From Verrucomicrobiaceae bacterium (GTDB taxonomy: Bacteria > Verrucomicrobiota > Verrucomicrobiia > Verrucomicrobiales > Akkermansiaceae), in the NCBI GenBank assembly GCA_027491155.1, contig JAIXWR010000008.1, positions 1-64,000 on the forward strand: 64,000 nucleotides of DNA, in the 5' to 3' direction. The notes under the pieces were generated by a model. The model worked only from the letters and a program-made list of their open reading frames with translations, was not told where the DNA came from and searched no databases. Numbering within the stretch: position 1 is the stretch's first letter; every line of letters starts with the position of its first letter. A program made the position numbers and the translations under genes. Positions 5,231-16,145 of this stretch are shown here, piece by piece.

Positions 5231-5334
5231 GGCCGGATGCTGCCGCGGCCGGGTGCCTGGCGGCAAGATCAACCCGAGATCTCCGCATGCCGGGATTGCA
5301 GCCCCGGCGGGAGGTGCTCAGGCTGGGCGCGCCC

Positions 5335-5547
5335 ATGCTGTTCTTCAAAGTCCTCGTCGTCCTCGGCCTGATCCCCTGGACCCTCGCCGGCATCTACCTT
5401 TTCGCCCGCTTCCAGAAGCTCTTCGGCCCGGACCGCGGACAGCCGTCCGAAACTCCCGGTGCCCGTTCGTTCGGCATGACCCACGTCTTCGCCGTGTGGG
5501 TCGGCGGCATGGCCCTGGGCATCTACTTCGCCTTCTTCGTGGGCTGA
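5335..5547 (+). CDS. Small two-helix membrane protein
   Basis: The product has 70 residues if started at ATG 5335; an in-frame ATG at 5287 would add 16 polar residues. Two hydrophobic helices are visible, LFFKVLVVLGLIPWTLAGI near the start and VFAVWVGGMALGIYFAFFV at the very end, separated by a polar loop of about 25 residues. No family is recognised. It ends just before the first copy of the RNA-like repeat element and is convergent with the protease gene beyond it. Confidence 0.55.
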   Translation: MLFFKVLVVLGLIPWTLAGIYLFARFQKLFGPDRGQPSETPGARSFGMTHVFAVWVGGMALGIYFAFFVG

Positions 5548-5576
5548 AAGCGGCGCGCGAAAGAAAATTTCAAAAA

Positions 5577-5608
5577 CTTTGAACGTCAGCTCACCTGAAG
5601 GGTCTACT
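5577..5608 (+). promoter_or_regulatory. ECF-sigma-type promoter of element copy 1
   Basis: A -35-like GAAC (5581-5584) lies 17 bases before GTCTAC (5602-5607), matching the GAAC/GTC pattern common to ECF sigma promoters. An A/T-rich tract (about 5561-5579) precedes it and could act as an UP element. Compared with copy 2, the two boxes are identical while the spacer between them has diverged, which is what selection on a promoter would leave. No experimental evidence; which sigma factor reads it is unknown. Confidence 0.55.
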
Positions 5609-5609
5609 C

Positions 5610-5737
5610 TCATGAAGACCGCGCACTGCGTGACTCTTCATGTAAGGGTGAACAGCACAAAATCAGATCCGCAGTCCATGGGTGTGGGCAGGAAATGATT
5701 CAGGCCGCCGGGGGTGGGACCCCGGCGGCCTACTCTT
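5610..5737 (+). ncRNA. Candidate small RNA, copy 1
   Basis: The predicted transcript would start about eight bases after the -10-like box. It begins with a hairpin (5611-5618 with 5635-5642, perfect 8 bp), has a middle stem (AATCA 5661-5665 with TGATT 5696-5700, plus CCGCA 5669-5673 with TGTGG 5684-5688 using one G-U pair), and ends in an 11-bp GC stem (5703-5713 with 5720-5730). It contains no plausible coding frame. The near identity to copy 2 over the whole transcribed part suggests a conserved RNA. Ends are approximate, and I do not recognise it as a named RNA family. Confidence 0.5.
5703..5737 (+). terminator. 3' GC hairpin of small RNA copy 1
   Basis: An 11-bp perfect stem (5703-5713 / 5720-5730) with a 6-base loop is followed by TACTCTTG, a weak T-containing tail. 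It could end the small RNA and also work from the other strand for the convergent protease gene. The lack of a solid T-run keeps confidence modest. Confidence 0.45.
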
Positions 5738-5759
5738 GTACGGAGAGAGCGCTTGGGAC

Positions 5760-7094
5760 TCAGCGGGCGCGAACCAGCGCCACCGCATCGGCCACCGCCT
5801 TGACCATTCCCTCGCGGGTCTTGGGCGGGTTGGCCGGAGGAGCCGGGGCGCGGAACGAGGAACCGAGCATGGCCCTGGCGTAGCCGATCTTGAGGGCGTA
5901 GTTGACGTTCTGGTTGATCTCGAGCCCCCGCGCGGAGACGCCGCTGCGGAGCGTGGCGGTGACGATGCCGACGACCTTGCCGGACGAATCCACCAGCGGA
6001 CTGCCCGAGTTCCCGGGCTGGATCGGCACGCTGATCTGGAAGTAGCGCCGGTCGTCGCCGGCTCCCGACAAGGAACTCACGCTGCCTTCGGTGAACTTTG
6101 CCGAGGATCCCTGCACGTTGACCTGGGGAAAGCCGACGGTGAACACCGGCTTGGCGAGGGTGACGCCCTTTTCATCGCCGAGCTCGAGGTATTTCGAGGT
6201 GGCGGTTTCGACCTTCAAAAGCGCGACGTCGTCCGCGGCATCGTGCTTGATCAGCTTGGCGGGCAGGAACCTGCCGTTGACCTCGACCTCGAGGTTCGGC
6301 CGGTCCTCGATCACATGGTAGTTGGTCAGCAGGAAGCCGTTGCCCGTGATGAAGAAGCCGGTGCCGGTCGCCGGGCCGGCCGGTCCCTTGGCCACCTCGG
6401 CCGCCGCTTCCGTCAGGCCGGCGGCGGCGAGCAGCTTGGCGCTGTCGGTGGTGAAAGAGGGCACGGTCCGCTCCGCGCCGTCGACGCCGACGTAGTTGAA
6501 CTTCCCGTGCACATACACGCTCTTCTCGAAGTTCATGCCGTCGATGTAGTTCCGGGTGTCGCATGCCAGCCAAGCGACTTCGACCGTCACGGTTTCCGGC
6601 ACGGTTTCGGTTTTGAAGCCCTTGCGGACGACCGGCTTCCGGTTCGGCTGGAGCGTGGTCGGGCCGCCTTCCCGGATGGTGTAGGGCACCTTGATCTCCT
6701 TGGTTTTGCCGGTGGTGAAGGTGGCTGGCGAAAGGAGGAAACCGCCATCCTTCACCTGCAGGATGGTGCCGCTCAGCGTGGTGACCCGGGATTTCAGGAA
6801 CTCGGCGGCCTGCTGGCGGCGGGCGGCCTCGTTCTCGGCGACGCCCGTGTTCTTGCGGTGCAGCGCGGCGTCATCGGGATTGAGTCCGAGTTCGGCCACG
6901 ATCTCGGGAGGCAGGCGCTCCAACGGGATCTTCGCCACGCCACCCTTGTGGATGATGCGGATGCCGTCGGGTTCGACCTTGCGGACCACCACCTCCTCGT
7001 AGTCCAGCAGCTTGGGATAGGTTTTCCCTTCTTGAGCCGAAAGCGGGGAGAGACAGGCGAAGGCGGCGAAACCCCAGGGGAGGAAGCGTTTCAT
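5760..7094 (-). CDS. Secreted trypsin-like (HtrA-type) serine protease
   Basis: The product has 444 residues from ATG 7094 (MKRFLPWG), with a signal peptide cleaved near LSAQE. An N-terminal part (about 25-230) includes an SHD1/SLA1-like stretch and an unrecognised beta region. The protease domain (about 243-410) carries all three catalytic residues in motifs TNYHV (His260), DDVALL (Asp289) and PGNSGSP (Ser363), numbered from this start. No PDZ domain follows, unlike true DegP. Expected to act in the periplasm or at the surface. It is divergent from the FAD oxidase gene (7179) and ends 18 bases from the RNA-like element. Confidence 0.88.
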   Translation of the reverse strand: MKRFLPWGFAAFACLSPLSAQEGKTYPKLLDYEEVVVRKVEPDGIRIIHKGGVAKIPLERLPPEIVAELGLNPDDAALHRKNTGVAENEAARRQQAAEFLKSRVTTLSGTILQVKDGGFLLSPATFTTGKTKEIKVPYTIREGGPTTLQPNRKPVVRKGFKTETVPETVTVEVAWLACDTRNYIDGMNFEKSVYVHGKFNYVGVDGAERTVPSFTTDSAKLLAAAGLTEAAAEVAKGPAGPATGTGFFITGNGFLLTNYHVIEDRPNLEVEVNGRFLPAKLIKHDAADDVALLKVETATSKYLELGDEKGVTLAKPVFTVGFPQVNVQGSSAKFTEGSVSSLSGAGDDRRYFQISVPIQPGNSGSPLVDSSGKVVGIVTATLRSGVSARGLEINQNVNYALKIGYARAMLGSSFRAPAPPANPPKTREGMVKAVADAVALVRAR

Positions 7095-7178
7095 CCCCAA
7101 TCCATAACCCGGAACCGCGCCCGGTGGTCAAGCCGGCATGCTTGTCTTTCCGGAGCCGTGAGGATAGACGCAGCCACG

Positions 7179-8552
7179 ATGCATCTCTCGCGCCGCGGGT
7201 TCCTTTCGATGTCGCTGGCGGCGGTGCCCGCATGGGGCCGTGAAGGCACGGCCACCGCTTATCTGAAACCGGGCGATCCGGGATATGAGGAAGCCCGGCG
7301 TCCCTTCAACTCGATGATCCGGCTCAAGCCCGCATGGATCGCCCGCTGCCGGACCGAAGCGGATGTGATCGCCGCCGTCCGCCACGCCAAGGAACTCGAC
7401 CTGCCGGTCGCCGTGAAGAGCGGCGGCCATGCCTTCCACGGCTTCAGCCTGAACGAGGGCGGCCTGCTGGTGGAGCTGTCCGGAATGGCGAACCGGCTGC
7501 TGGAGAAAGGCAGCCAGCGCTTCACCGCGGGGCCGGGCTTGAAGCTGCGCGACAGCTATTCGTGGCTGATGGAGCGCGGCCGAATCCTCCCCGCCGGATC
7601 CTGCGGCGGTGTCGGGCTGGCGGGGCTGACCCTCGGCGGCGGCTACGGCCTGTTCGCCCGGGAGTTCGGTCTGACCTGCGATCATCTGCTGGAAGTGCGG
7701 CTGGTCGATGGCAACGGCGAGGTCCGCGATTCGCGCGACGAAGCGGAGTTGCTGTGGGCCTGCCGCGGCGGGGGCAACGGAAACTTCGGCATCGCCACCT
7801 CGTTCACCTTTGAAACCCGCCCCGCCCCGGTCGCCCTGGCCAGCCAGCGCTTCACCGCGAAAGGACTGGACGCCGGCGGGCTGGCGCGGCGGCTGGAACG
7901 CTGGTTCGAAATCGCCGCGGCGCTGCCCGATCCCTGCTTTTCCGCGGTGATCCTGAACGGCAGCCAGGCCACCGTGCTGCTGACCTCCACCCGCCCGGCG
8001 GACGGCCCGGCCTTCCGCAGCGCCGCCTCGGCATGCTTGAAATCCGGCTTCACCAGCAAAGGCGCGCTGACCCGCCCGCTGGCCCGCGCCCTGGGCAGCT
8101 ACGAAGGCCGGCCCGGTCCCCTGCCCTTCGACAATGTCTCGGCCGGCTACTACCGCAGCTTCCAGGATCTGAAATCCGTCGCCGGCGGGATCTGCGCCAC
8201 GGTGCGCGAAACGCCCGGGCTGATCTTCCAGGTCAACACCCTCGGCGGCGCGATCGCCCGCGGCCCGGATTCCGCCTATCCGCACCGCGATTACCCCTTC
8301 CTCGGCGAACTCCAGGCCTATTGGGAAAAGGGAGAGATCCCCCCGAAGCTCGCCGCCGGCCACGCGGCCGTCCGCAGGGCCCTGGCCGACGCCGGCATCC
8401 GCCGCCATTACCGGAACTACCCCGACCCGCGGATCGCCGACTGGCAGGACGCCTATTTCACCGGCACCTACCCCCGCTTGCAGGAGCTCAAACGGAAGCT
8501 CGATCCCGACGACCGGATCCGCCACCCGCAAAGCGTCCGCCTGCCCGGTTGA
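7179..8552 (+). CDS. Tat-exported FAD-linked oxidoreductase (berberine-bridge type)
   Basis: The product has 457 residues from ATG 7179; the frame is open far upstream but only this start gives a twin-arginine signal (SRRGFLSMS). An FAD-binding PCMH domain covers about 45-215, with GGHAFHG supplying the His expected for covalent FAD attachment and GSCGGVGLAGLTLGGGYG the second flavin loop, including the Cys used for bicovalent linkage in this family. The C-terminus (HPQSVRLP) resembles the BBE tail. Such enzymes oxidise carbohydrates or alcohols, passing electrons to oxygen or another acceptor; the substrate is not evident. The divergent neighbour is the serine protease, and the stop is followed by copy 2 of the RNA-like element. 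Confidence 0.87.
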   Translation: MHLSRRGFLSMSLAAVPAWGREGTATAYLKPGDPGYEEARRPFNSMIRLKPAWIARCRTEADVIAAVRHAKELDLPVAVKSGGHAFHGFSLNEGGLLVELSGMANRLLEKGSQRFTAGPGLKLRDSYSWLMERGRILPAGSCGGVGLAGLTLGGGYGLFAREFGLTCDHLLEVRLVDGNGEVRDSRDEAELLWACRGGGNGNFGIATSFTFETRPAPVALASQRFTAKGLDAGGLARRLERWFEIAAALPDPCFSAVILNGSQATVLLTSTRPADGPAFRSAASACLKSGFTSKGALTRPLARALGSYEGRPGPLPFDNVSAGYYRSFQDLKSVAGGICATVRETPGLIFQVNTLGGAIARGPDSAYPHRDYPFLGELQAYWEKGEIPPKLAAGHAAVRRALADAGIRRHYRNYPDPRIADWQDAYFTGTYPRLQELKRKLDPDDRIRHPQSVRLPG

Positions 8553-8577
8553 GGAAATTCGAAAAAATTTTCAGAAA

Positions 8578-8609
8578 CTTTGAACGTCTGGGAAACTGAA
8601 GGGTCTACT
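8578..8609 (+). promoter_or_regulatory. ECF-sigma-type promoter of element copy 2
   Basis: GAAC (8582-8585) and GTCTAC (8603-8608) stand at the same 17-base spacing as in copy 1, preceded by a similar A/T-rich tract. Spacer bases at about 8589-8595 differ from copy 1 while both boxes are unchanged. Confidence 0.55.
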
Positions 8610-8610
8610 C

Positions 8611-8738
8611 TCATGAAGACCGCGCACTGCGTGACTCTTCATGTAAGGGTGAACAGCACAAAATCAGATCCGCAGTCCATGGGTGTGGGCAGGAAATGAT
8701 TCAGGCCGTCGGGGGTGGGACCCCGGCGGCCTACTCTT
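8611..8738 (+). ncRNA. Candidate small RNA, copy 2
   Basis: Same predicted three-stem structure as copy 1: 5' hairpin 8612-8619 / 8636-8643, middle stem, and 3' GC hairpin 8704-8714 / 8721-8731. The single base change (T8709) lies in the 3' stem opposite G8726, so a C-G pair becomes a U-G wobble and the fold is kept. Ends approximate; function unknown. Confidence 0.5.
8704..8738 (+). terminator. 3' GC hairpin of small RNA copy 2
   Basis: Same 11-bp stem as in copy 1 with one wobble pair, followed by TACTCTTG. It may also end transcription of the convergent malectin-domain gene, whose stop is at 8753. Confidence 0.45.
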
Positions 8739-8752
8739 GTACGCCGGACCCG

Positions 8753-10999
8753 TCACTCGCCTGCCGGCTCGAAGAAGAGCTGGTAGAACATCCTTCCCCC
8801 GGCCGCGGGATCTTCGACCTGGTGCGTCGCCCTTTGTTCCGCGGTCATCGCCGCGATTTCCGCGCGGGTCACCGTCGCGATGCGATTCGCCGGATTCGCC
8901 AGAGCGGTCAGGTCGGAACTGCGGTGAAGATGGTAGTTCCCGAGCGGCTTGAGTTCCGGGAAGCGGATCGAAGTGCCGCCGGCACCGGGTTCGCAGCGCA
9001 GCCGGAAGGCGAGGTCGTCGGCCGGATCCTTCGGGTCGAGCTGCAGCTCGAACTCGGCGAAGTTGTCCTGCCCGCCGCCGTCGGAATCGGCATCGGATTG
9101 TCCCGCCAGACCGTGGCCGGCAAGCCAGTCCTCGAAGGTTGGCGGCGGTTCGTCCGGGACAACGGGAAACACCTCGATGCCCGAGATCGTCGGGTTGCTC
9201 GCCACCCGGGGGAACACGAGGTTCAACTGCCCGTCGCCCACCAGCACCGGGATCTCCACCACGCAGGCGGTGAGAAGGCCGGCGCGGTCGAAGATGTCCA
9301 GGTTGTCCACCTTCAACTCGCCCTCGGCCACGATGTCGAAAACCCGGCTGCCCGTGGTGAAGGTTCCCACGGTCTCGACGAAATGAAGCAGCACCCGGTA
9401 GCTCCCGGCGGGCAGGTCGAACGCATAGGCAAGGTCGGGCTGGCTCGTGCTGATCGTCCGGCGCGATTGGTAGAGGAAGGGATTGGCGGTTCCCTGGATG
9501 GCGTTCGAATGGGACGAGGGGTTCCCGGTGTTGAAGCCGAAATCCGCCAGCCAGGCCTTGCCCTGGGGATCGGTGAACGCCCCGCCGCTCCCGACATTCA
9601 CCCGCAGCAGGGCTTCCCCCACCGTCCCTCCGCCGGCCGGCGTGGCGGTGGCGGACACGGCGGACGACTCCTTGCCCGCGGCATCCCGGGCGGTGACCTG
9701 ATAGCTGTAGGTCGTGCCGTTCACCACGGCGGAATCGGTGAAGCCCAGGCCCGTGACTTCGGCGATTTGCGCTCCACCGCGGTAGATCCGGTAGGCAACC
9801 ACGCCGATATCGTCGGTCGCCGCGGTCCAGGAAAGCCCGACCATGCCATCGCCGGGGGTCGCCTGGAGCGATCCGGGGGGCGACGGAACCTGGGTGTCCC
9901 CGGTAGTTCCTCCTCCTCCGCCGCCGGCGGGGTCGTAGTCGATCGTCAGGACGTCCGAGGACGAACTTCTCCTGCCGGACTCCGTGGCCTCCGACAAGAT
10001 CGCGGCGACCTTGTGGATTCCCGCCTCCTTGAAACGCGAGGCCGTCATCGGAATATCGACAAACCCGCCCGCGGGGAGGGTGAAATCCGTGCCGCCGTAG
10101 TCGACCACCATGTTGGTTTCGTACGGATCGATGTCGTAGCCACCCCCCGCGACCCCGGCGACGGCGAGCTCGCTGCGATACCACCAGAGCCGGCCGGTCG
10201 CCCCGGCCGGGCCGGTCACCCTCACCGTCGGCAAGGTGTCGGTGGAAAAGGGGGAACTCCGGCCGGGAACCGACAATACCGGCGTCGCCAGGTTGTCCGG
10301 GGCCAGCACGCCCACCGATGTCTTGTTGTTGTTGGTCCCGGCATGGTTCCAGCCTCCCATGCGGACCACGCGGACGGTGGCGTCGCTGAAAGTGATCGTC
10401 ACCGTGGCCCCCACCAGCTCGAGTCCCGAGACGCTGCCGGAGTGGTTCGGCCCGGGTCCGATCGCCCCCTTGATGCTGGTGGGATCGACGTCGGAAGAAA
10501 ATCTCAGCAAATCACCCGGCCCGAAATCCACCGTCGGCCCGAAATCCACCCGCAGGACATCGTAGCCGTCCTGGCTTCCGATCCCGTTGTGAGGCGACTC
10601 GAAGGAATGAACCGGGGTCCCGCTGCCGTCGAAGTAGTCGAGCCCGAACGCCTTGCCATCGATATCCCCCGCCGTGCCGAAGGGATCGAAGACGAGGTCC
10701 GGCAGCATGGCGGTCCTGAGGTCGATCTTGAAAGAAGTGATCCGCTGGCCGCCGGTCGAGAGATTGACCAACCGGAAGGTTCCGACCGTGTTCGTGCTGG
10801 AACTGGTCATGCTGCCGGCCTCGCTGTTGACGGTCAGCCGTGCCGCCGCGGTGCCGGACATGGCTGCGGCGGGAGACGGGACGATGGCAGCCAGGCAAGC
10901 CATGCAAAGGATTGCCAAACGCGACGGAAGAGACAGCCGGCGCGACGGGCTCGGCCAGCCTGGTCCGCGAACCAGGAGGATATCGGGGGGAAGGATCAT
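8753..10999 (-). CDS. Secreted protein with FN3 and malectin domains
   Basis: The product has 748 residues from ATG 10999; a hydrophobic signal segment (LAILCMACLAAIVPSPAAA) follows a basic start. The first part (about 50-360) is beta-rich and unassigned. A fibronectin type III domain spans about 368-455 (PGSLQATPGDG, WTAATDD, YRIYR). A malectin-like carbohydrate-binding domain spans about 461-610 (RVNVGSGG, FNTGNP, VLLHFVE). The C-terminal 120 residues hold an Asp-rich turn (DADSDGG) and the module shared with four other exported proteins here (HLHRSSDL ... FYQLFF). Likely surface or secreted, binding glycans. The gene is convergent with the FAD oxidase across the RNA-like element. Confidence 0.8.
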   Translation of the reverse strand: MILPPDILLVRGPGWPSPSRRLSLPSRLAILCMACLAAIVPSPAAAMSGTAAARLTVNSEAGSMTSSSTNTVGTFRLVNLSTGGQRITSFKIDLRTAMLPDLVFDPFGTAGDIDGKAFGLDYFDGSGTPVHSFESPHNGIGSQDGYDVLRVDFGPTVDFGPGDLLRFSSDVDPTSIKGAIGPGPNHSGSVSGLELVGATVTITFSDATVRVVRMGGWNHAGTNNNKTSVGVLAPDNLATPVLSVPGRSSPFSTDTLPTVRVTGPAGATGRLWWYRSELAVAGVAGGGYDIDPYETNMVVDYGGTDFTLPAGGFVDIPMTASRFKEAGIHKVAAILSEATESGRRSSSSDVLTIDYDPAGGGGGGTTGDTQVPSPPGSLQATPGDGMVGLSWTAATDDIGVVAYRIYRGGAQIAEVTGLGFTDSAVVNGTTYSYQVTARDAAGKESSAVSATATPAGGGTVGEALLRVNVGSGGAFTDPQGKAWLADFGFNTGNPSSHSNAIQGTANPFLYQSRRTISTSQPDLAYAFDLPAGSYRVLLHFVETVGTFTTGSRVFDIVAEGELKVDNLDIFDRAGLLTACVVEIPVLVGDGQLNLVFPRVASNPTISGIEVFPVVPDEPPPTFEDWLAGHGLAGQSDADSDGGGQDNFAEFELQLDPKDPADDLAFRLRCEPGAGGTSIRFPELKPLGNYHLHRSSDLTALANPANRIATVTRAEIAAMTAEQRATHQVEDPAAGGRMFYQLFFEPAGE

Positions 11000-11099
11000 C
11001 GTTCGGGGGGAAACGGTGGCTCGCCGGCAAAGAAGGAACAGTCTTCGCTCCGGCACAAGTCCTTTTGGCGGAAACGCCTGACGGAAATGCTCCGTGCCG

Positions 11100-15585: not shown

Positions 15586-16145
15586 GACGGGAATCTAGCG
15601 GCAACCGCTGACCCGCATCCAGACAAAGCCGCGCTCCGGTGTCCCGAAGGGACTGCGTATCAAAGCCCGGGGTTGCGAGCATCGGCGAACTACCCCGGGT
15701 CACCCATCAGAGATCACCCTACGCCAACGGCGTTGCGTGGGTTCGGCCCCGGAGTCTCCTCTCGGCCGCCCCCGGACACAACCGCTTTGCGGTAGGACAA
15801 TGCGGGGCGTTTACCCGGGGTAGCACCTCCTTCGTCGGTGCAACCCCGGGCTTTGGGATGGAGTCCCGTCGGGACATCGATCACCCCGGTAGTGCACTCC
15901 GTCGCCCGGGCGGCAAGATGGCTTCATCCTCACGCCGCCTTCCAAGCGAAACTCCGGTCCACCGCAGCCTCCATCAGGAGTGTTGATCTGTGGTCAACAC
16001 GGTGTCGACGGCACTTCGACACTCCTTGGTCGAAGCGCACCCGGTGACTTCACGTGCCGGTATCGGCGCGGTTACTCCTCGTCCCGGGCGGCAGGATGCC
16101 GCCGGGTCCATCGTCATGTCGCCTTCAAGGCGACACTCCACTCGA
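15586..16145. repeat. Cluster of short palindromes (REP-like), no gene
   Basis: This 560-base gap holds many small perfect hairpins: GTCCC-GAA-GGGAC at 15641-15653, CCCGGGG/CCCCGGG pairs at 15666-15672 with 15693-15699 and at 15814-15820 with 15844-15850, ACGCC-AAC-GGCGT at 15721-15733, ACCGC-TTT-GCGGT at 15781-15793, GTCCC-GTC-GGGAC at 15863-15875, and TGTCGCCTT-C-AAGGCGACA at 16117-16135. Stem pairs recur with different loops. This looks like an array of REP-type elements, perhaps spread by a REP-associated transposase not present here. Open frames across it are not credible. Confidence 0.65.

Follow-up and report, generated by a model that had tools for sequence, protein, structure and literature searches.

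Twin elements of a verrucomicrobial contig as copies of an apparently undescribed small-RNA gene family with ECF-type promoters

What are two almost identical stretches of DNA doing between convergent genes? We asked this of a 64,000-nt stretch of DNA (here called the window; positions 1 to 64,000 of contig JAIXWR010000008.1) from a Verrucomicrobiaceae bacterium (assembly GCA_027491155.1), in which a first-pass annotation had described twin elements at 5561-5742 and 8562-8743 as probable duplicated small RNA (sRNA) genes. Direct comparison bears out the repeat: the full-length twins agree at 173 of 182 nt, and the part from 5595 to 5742 differs from that from 8596 to 8743 at a single one of 148 bases (5708, C/T), which leaves the 147 identical bases originally reported. 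Both copies are indeed flanked by facing frames. Their 200-nt flanks, at 24% and 22.5% identity, resemble each other at chance level. Among direct repeats of at least 40 nt, the window holds two families, of which the twins are the sole long one (182 nt); the other measures 42 nt at 67-79% identity. The repeated unit extends beyond the predicted RNA and takes in a promoter, from 5561 on. We conclude that the twins belong, as two copies, to a small-RNA gene family of Verrucomicrobiota that is apparently undescribed. The idea of duplicated sRNA genes draws support from the promoter, covarying stems, a terminator-like hairpin, four genomic copies, and relatives at recurrent loci, and from the lack of a conserved coding frame, of an Rfam family, and of a match in the viral, plasmid, and phage collections searched.

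The cassette reads in this order: an A-tract, TTTGAAC, 17 nt, GTCT, and then a predicted RNA of ~128 nt with three stem-loops, between the first two of which lies the short, near-constant core considered below. Among 72 family loci gathered by that core alone, 70 have GAAC-N15..19-GTC[TA] upstream, the spacer being 17 in 68 and 18 in 2; these 70 were retained from 85 fuzzy core matches, with 13 judged unrelated by eye and loci L029 and L033 left out. A later set of 95, for which GAAC-N16..18-GTC[TA] was the entry condition and which omits family members without the promoter, has a spacer of 17 in 93. In a logo of 66 promoters, the three positions ahead of GAAC are T in 59, 66, and 63, GTC is followed by T in 58 and by A in 8 (no other base having been admitted), and five A columns at -20 to -16 each exceed 1 bit. 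Across 18 genomes of the genus, TTGAACR-N16-GTCT occurs at 111 sites, and its reversed control at 51. A count by hand assigns 56 of the 111 sites to family copies; the 55 left over come close to the control number. The argument from invariance is weakened by the fact that some promoter letters were selected for, and another is strengthened by this genus-wide count against its control. Judged by its letters, with a GAAC -35, a GTC-type -10, fixed spacing, and an upstream A/T tract, the element promoter has the form of promoters used by extracytoplasmic function (ECF), sigma-E-like sigma factors. Two reports (PMC2893595 and PMC10771440) give GGAACTT as the Escherichia coli sigma-E -35 consensus; the meningococcal -10 they describe is CGTCTAAH, preceded by an A/T-rich stretch and followed, six bases downstream, by a conserved start A. 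With this spacing, the window RNAs are predicted to start at ~5612 (ending at ~5739) and at ~8613, in each case at the base of hairpin 1. A simple promoter/terminator scan missed the element promoter because it is unlike sigma-70 promoters, and hairpin 3 because its tail has few Ts.

Two further sites of this form were seen. The genome to which the window belongs has a fourth strict promoter match at contig 35:18488 (L076 1483-1533), which lies between frames, has a matrix score of 32.4, and has no core downstream. Another TTGAAC-N17-GTCT site, at about position 1500 of L199, L204, L206, and L225, is common to four genus genomes, with conserved upstream DNA (GAAATTTCTAACGA-like) and ~200 nt of similar sequence downstream. 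No frame of at least 90 codons starts within 400 nt of it in three of these loci (one does in L225), and the site is without an Rfam match in L204 and L206; it might mark another RNA, or a leader, driven by a related promoter.

Does the transcribed part behave as an RNA? Folding recovers the three stems first described. Copy 2 with its flanks folds at -69.5 kcal/mol (z -3.6; 1 of 200 shuffles is equally good). Removal of near-duplicates left 50 of 71 family sequences; when these 50 were folded singly, most formed hairpin 1, then an unpaired stretch, hairpin 2, and a terminator-like hairpin rich in GC. Some minimum-energy folds deviate from this form (e.g., L019, L029, L052, and L066). Most members keep the form although the sequence of hairpin 2, and in other genera that of the terminator stem, differs widely. 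A structure from an all-subtype MAFFT alignment and RNAalifold, consisting of the terminator and a 3-pair helix only, was rejected, the helix being judged spurious and hairpin 1 misaligned. Covariation was scored on a subtype-C-like alignment, A2, of 42 sequences (36 of the 37 subtype C sequences, L068 being omitted, and 6 of 15 unassigned ones), with a structure derived from A2 itself. Standard pairs fill 90.9% of its cells, 17 of 33 pairs show double changes, and double-change cells number 65, versus 16.3 in shuffles (0 of 500 had as many); slid versions of the structure reach 36-51% paired and 10-28 double-changed cells. Helix 1, which is hairpin 1, has 87.2% of cells paired and double changes in 4 of 11 pairs, and hairpin 3 has double changes in 8 of 10. 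Covariation across homologues, whose absence had been named beforehand as a possible refutation, is therefore present, and it supports the stems. A promoter and a 3' hairpin of its own, free of neighboring genes, a conserved secondary structure with compensatory changes, and several close copies in a genome speak for placing the family with the trans-acting sibling sRNAs.

The core, GUAAGGGU-(GA)-ACAGCA, consists of two blocks and is near constant and unpaired. The pattern GUAAGGGU..ACAG.A is invariant across the 50 aligned members, and the unpaired fraction is 0.60 in the core and 0.29 in the rest, with the core higher in 89 of 95 members; the linker is GA in 78 of the 95 and ranges from A to GTTA. 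At the other end of the RNA, subtypes other than A have T-richer 3' tails, and the T-poor tail of most subtype A copies weakens the terminator part of the assignment to sibling sRNAs. At 5732-5742 and 8733-8743, as in most subtype A copies, the terminator T-run is replaced by a conserved tail that ends in TTGTAC. This subtype A tail can pair with the core, but the evidence is no more than suggestive, with at most 5 of 100 shuffles as good in just 6 of 26 members.

The genome of the window carries four copies in three subtypes: both window copies belong to subtype A, a third copy (B) lies on contig 43, and the fourth (C) on contig 4. Covariance model R1, at 1e-5, matches 72 of 145 genomes of the bacterial family, in 8 of 16 genera, and all 18 genus genomes searched, each with 2-6 copies; many genomes of other genera have a single match. 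In a sample of the phylum, 17 of 288 genomes match at 0.01; the matches inspected outside the positive genera (L118, L119, L120, and L123, with L121, L122, and L124 outside that inspection) are terminator hairpins only. With blastn from the window at 0.01, 30 of 97 relatives match, the weakest through short stretches only. A 21-mer from the end of hairpin 1 and the core occurs in 57 stretches of the GTDB genome collection, all titled Verrucomicrobiota, including Haloferula, Luteolibacter, Roseibacillus, and some metagenome bins titled Akkermansia muciniphila or Prosthecobacter debontii. The family was not found in viral contigs (exact 21-mer) or in plasmids or phages (blastn). The earlier statement that no named RNA family fits also holds: Rfam 15 gave nothing at the gathering threshold for the window, the element, and eight fetched loci (mostly family loci), the best weak match being FsrA at 21.1 of 80 bits on the opposite strand. 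Nor did any entry listed by open-licence literature searches on small RNAs of Verrucomicrobia and Akkermansia, on structured-RNA surveys, or on the core itself appear, by title and abstract start, to deal with the family. In L176 and L178, a second promoter-hairpin-terminator unit stands in tandem downstream of a family member; by eye, its core is altered (L178) or missing (L176).

The neighbors differ from subtype to subtype. At 27 loci whose family member is of subtype C or unassigned, there is a homologue of a SurA/PpiD-like gene, and of the nine nearest such genes listed, eight lie downstream on the same strand and one overlaps. A secretin gene lies upstream of a family member in eight other loci, again a subtype C context, and an M48 peptidase gene lies upstream of subtype B in six. 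Subtype A stands near peptidase, oxidoreductase, and FGE-sulfatase/kinase genes, and the window copies and subtype B face an opposite-strand gene. Judged by eye, envelope genes are over-represented near family loci. One RNA in several contexts, partly facing an opposite gene, favors an autonomous trans-acting transcript. A core-like stretch ahead of the SurA-like gene was dropped as a candidate, since it looks like that gene's own -35/-10.

Why, then, are the twins so alike? The first-pass annotation had offered recent duplication, gene conversion, or constraint. We compared 27 subtype A genes from eleven genomes (23 within-genome and 328 between-genome pairs), using averages uncorrected for phylogeny: identity within and between genomes is 0.917 and 0.824 for the transcript, 0.749 and 0.681 for the promoter spacer, and 0.616 and 0.613 for the upstream DNA. 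The nearest relative is in the same genome for 20 of the 26 copies of multi-copy genomes, and some pairs in three genomes (G006, G007, and G008) share the whole promoter spacer too. For the window twins, the values are 0.99, 0.71, and 0.65. That clustered copies are alike only in the transcript suggests concerted evolution. Because the upstream DNA has diverged equally within and between genomes and the transcript has not, the identity of the twins would be better explained by gene conversion or transcript constraint than by simple recent duplication, which of the three explanations is the least favored.

In total, we think it probable that these are sibling genes, driven by an ECF sigma factor and switched on together, for one ~128-nt regulatory RNA that acts in trans. 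As read from the DNA, each copy has its own ECF-type promoter, a three-hairpin RNA, and a near-constant unpaired core. In the mechanism we propose, envelope or other outside stress would activate an ECF sigma factor and thereby turn on all copies together; the predicted RNA would then act in trans, with the core as its functional part. The core could serve for short seed pairing with several mRNAs, or it could be a two-part landing site for an RNA-binding protein, an option considered because the two blocks tolerate a linker of varying length. The genome (99.67% complete) gave no Hfq match in a search that was positive in 5 of 14 control genomes, and it has four RRM_1 matches; given the lack of an Hfq match, one of the four RRM proteins would be the likeliest RNA partner. 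RbpB of Bacteroides is an RRM protein. According to PMC11697453, RbpB binds a 14-copy sRNA family. Several copies would serve dose and speed, while the transcripts would stay alike through gene conversion or selection. As to the outcome, analogy alone suggests that the mRNAs of envelope proteins might be repressed, as envelope proteins are by the sigma-E-driven sRNAs of E. coli and Fusobacterium (PMC8103513 and PMC11005410). We also entertain, as an improbable extension, a dedicated Akkermansiaceae ECF sigma factor with a largely sRNA regulon, in which gene conversion of the transcript would keep the siblings alike, an RRM protein would read the two-block core independently of Hfq, and subtype A tails would restrain siblings by pairing with their own or a sibling's core. 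The idea of a largely sRNA regulon comes from the 18 genus genomes, where the excess of promoter sites over the control roughly equals the number of sRNA copies.

Several observations weigh against this proposal. L029 and L033 are family members without the promoter pattern; GAAC and GTC were fixed by selection in the 66-promoter logo and the set of 95, where they are invariant by construction; and in the genome of the window alone, the promoter pattern has 4 matches against 3 for the reversed control. That genome has 41 Sigma70_r2 matches (38 above the cut-off), a large sigma set from which none was singled out, and a promoter-matrix scan of the fetched loci, 30 sigma loci among them, found no site at the sigma loci at a threshold of 13 (the lowest family member scores 21.3). 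The structure of A2 comes from the same alignment on which covariation was scored, and sliding the structure by -1 likewise leaves 17 pairs with a double change. The core was partly used to gather members, and distant members found by the model (L115, L117, L132, and L133) differ at the core start and linker. The T-poor tail may mean that termination at the window copies is weak, and the identity averages may reflect phylogeny. Is there at least a target for the core? In six genomes, all 29 exact 16-mer core matches are family copies, and 18 two-mismatch complements stand against 14 in the reversed control, with no clear target and no gene in common seen among the 13 of the 18 inspected. In the best complement (contig 31:37803-37818 of the same genome; L262 2304-2319), all 16 core bases pair, 14 as standard pairs and 2 as G-U; by our own arithmetic, ~0.9 such 14-nt stretches are expected by chance in six genomes. 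This site lies in an intergenic region of ~1 kb with no likely gene start close by and an opposite-strand neighbor that is weakly outer-membrane beta-barrel-like, just below the Pfam cut-off; it yielded no family member by model R1 and no plasmid match. With core complements near chance, the core is unlikely to have a long antisense target that is conserved, which leaves short seeds or a protein site.

Could the RNA work without pairing to mRNA at all? A sponge that titrates an RNA-binding protein via the two-block core, in the manner of Csr/Rsm, would fit the conservation of AAGGGU and ACAGCA across linkers from A to GTTA, the several copies per genome, and the lack of a clear complementary target. 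CsrB-type sponges carry many sites, however, whereas each RNA here has a single core; the linker is also mostly GA, and the candidate binding protein is only putative, so that we consider a sponge unlikely. Alternatively, the core might pair with the 3' end of 16S rRNA (GGGUGA-UCACCU and CAGC-GCUG) and damp translation initiation generally. The duplex with the tail of two genomes (G000 and G009) reaches -15.3 kcal/mol, and a fraction of 0.008 of 2000 shuffled cores is as good. This was a post hoc find, however; with the last 14 nt of the tail alone, the fraction rises to 0.218, members with the linker A lack the pairing GA, and in the ribosome GCUG belongs to helix 45. We regard such pairing as very improbable.

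The claim that the element has no reading frame needs qualification, since an ATG frame of 28 codons starts at 5612, which coincides with the predicted +1. A leaderless short protein (MKTAHCVTLHVRVNS...) would thus be conceivable, and in the most common frame, which 46 of 84 scorable members have, the core reads HVRVNS. The frame is not kept across the family, however: the start-to-core distance of those 84 members (11 of the 95 are not scorable) falls in all three frames (46/19/19), an ATG start codon is present in only 39 of 95, frame lengths scatter from <5 to >40 codons, and the stems covary. The family reading frame is not conserved as that of a small-protein gene would be, and we give a short protein only the slimmest of chances. 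A cis-acting leader or attenuator of a neighboring gene is suggested by the position of subtype C upstream of the SurA/PpiD-like gene at many loci; against it, the window copies and subtype B face an opposite-strand gene, the same RNA stands beside several unrelated neighbors, and the SurA-like gene seemingly has a TTGAAG...TTTACT promoter of its own past the hairpin, judged by eye. This account, too, has a small probability. Several copies, some in tandem (three within 700 nt in genome G011), might instead betray a mobile element or miniature repeat. Yet no match was found in viral contigs, plasmids, or phages (insertion-sequence libraries being outside that search), each genus genome searched has 2-6 copies, B and C sit at recurrent loci, inspection by eye showed neither a target duplication nor a terminal repeat, and what is repeated comprises promoter, RNA, and hairpin; we attach next to no probability to mobility. 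The evidence in sum still points to sibling genes for a trans-acting RNA.

How does such a family compare with known systems? It appears to be new, of a known kind, and endowed with an unusually clear promoter. Like the sigma-E envelope-stress sRNAs MicA, RybB, and MicL of E. coli and FoxI/FoxJ of Fusobacterium, it joins an ECF-type promoter to a short regulatory RNA, here a predicted one; no Rfam match links them, and there is no Hfq match here. The LhrC family of Listeria has several paralogous copies induced by envelope stress and has C-rich seeds, whereas the core here is G-rich and the phylum different. Known sibling sRNAs are mostly Hfq users. The siblings Qrr, OmrA/B, AbcR, and csRNAs share with our family the presence of several close copies per bacterium (PMC4211561), without any relation by Rfam search. 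FopS of Bacteroides, as described in PMC11697453, resembles it in its many paralogues, one conserved unpaired segment, and an RRM-bearing organism. FopS, however, measures ~65-70 nt, consists of a single-stranded 5' stretch and one terminator, and has a housekeeping promoter, while the family here has ~128 nt, three hairpins, a core after hairpin 1, and an ECF-type promoter; the same source says that the FopS structure was deposited in Rfam, yet there is no Rfam match here.

The searches, which covered listings of open-licence papers, showed no small-RNA regulon of Verrucomicrobiota, and the family provides a concrete entry: a defined promoter, a defined predicted RNA, and copies in named Haloferula and Luteolibacter strains. 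Since the genome yielded no Hfq match, the family can be used to learn how RNA regulation works in bacteria of this kind, and the promoter would help to find which of the approximately forty sigma factors answers the relevant stress.

Table 1. Positions of both copies, their parts, and the adjoining genes in the window
Feature	Position	Strand	Basis or remark
Copy 1 promoter	5561-5606	+	A/T tract (UP-like), TTTGAAC (GAAC 5581-5584), 17-nt spacer, GTCT (5602-5605)
Copy 1 small RNA, predicted	5612-5739	+	Model R1 match 5602-5739, 127.1 bits
Hairpin 1, copy 1	5611-5642	+	Folds and family alignment (helix 1)
Core GUAAGGGUGAACAGCA, copy 1, mostly unpaired	5642-5657	+	(Nearly) invariant alignment columns
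Hairpin 2, copy 1	5661-5700	+	Fold; alignment helices 2-3; sequence varies between subtypes
Hairpin 3, copy 1, terminator-like	5702-5739	+	Stem 5702-5713/5720-5731, then T-poor tail ACTCTTGT
Copy 2 promoter	8562-8607	+	GAAC 8582-8585, GTCT 8603-8606
Copy 2 small RNA, predicted	8613-8740	+	Model R1 match 8603-8740, 125.5 bits
Core of copy 2	8643-8658	+	Exact core match
Terminator-like hairpin and tail, copy 2	8703-8740	+	Fold
Copy 1 neighbor, 86-codon frame	5287-5547	+	Without Pfam match
Copy 1 neighbor, trypsin-like peptidase (Trypsin_2)	5760-7100	-	Pfam PF13365, 1.4e-29
Copy 2 neighbor, FAD-binding berberine-bridge-like oxidoreductase	7179-8552	+	Pfam PF01565 and PF08031
Copy 2 neighbor, malectin-domain protein	8753-11056	-	Pfam search

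Elsewhere in the window, 15637-15676 and 15840-15879 form a 40-nt inverted repeat, 85% complementary, with its arms 163 nt apart.

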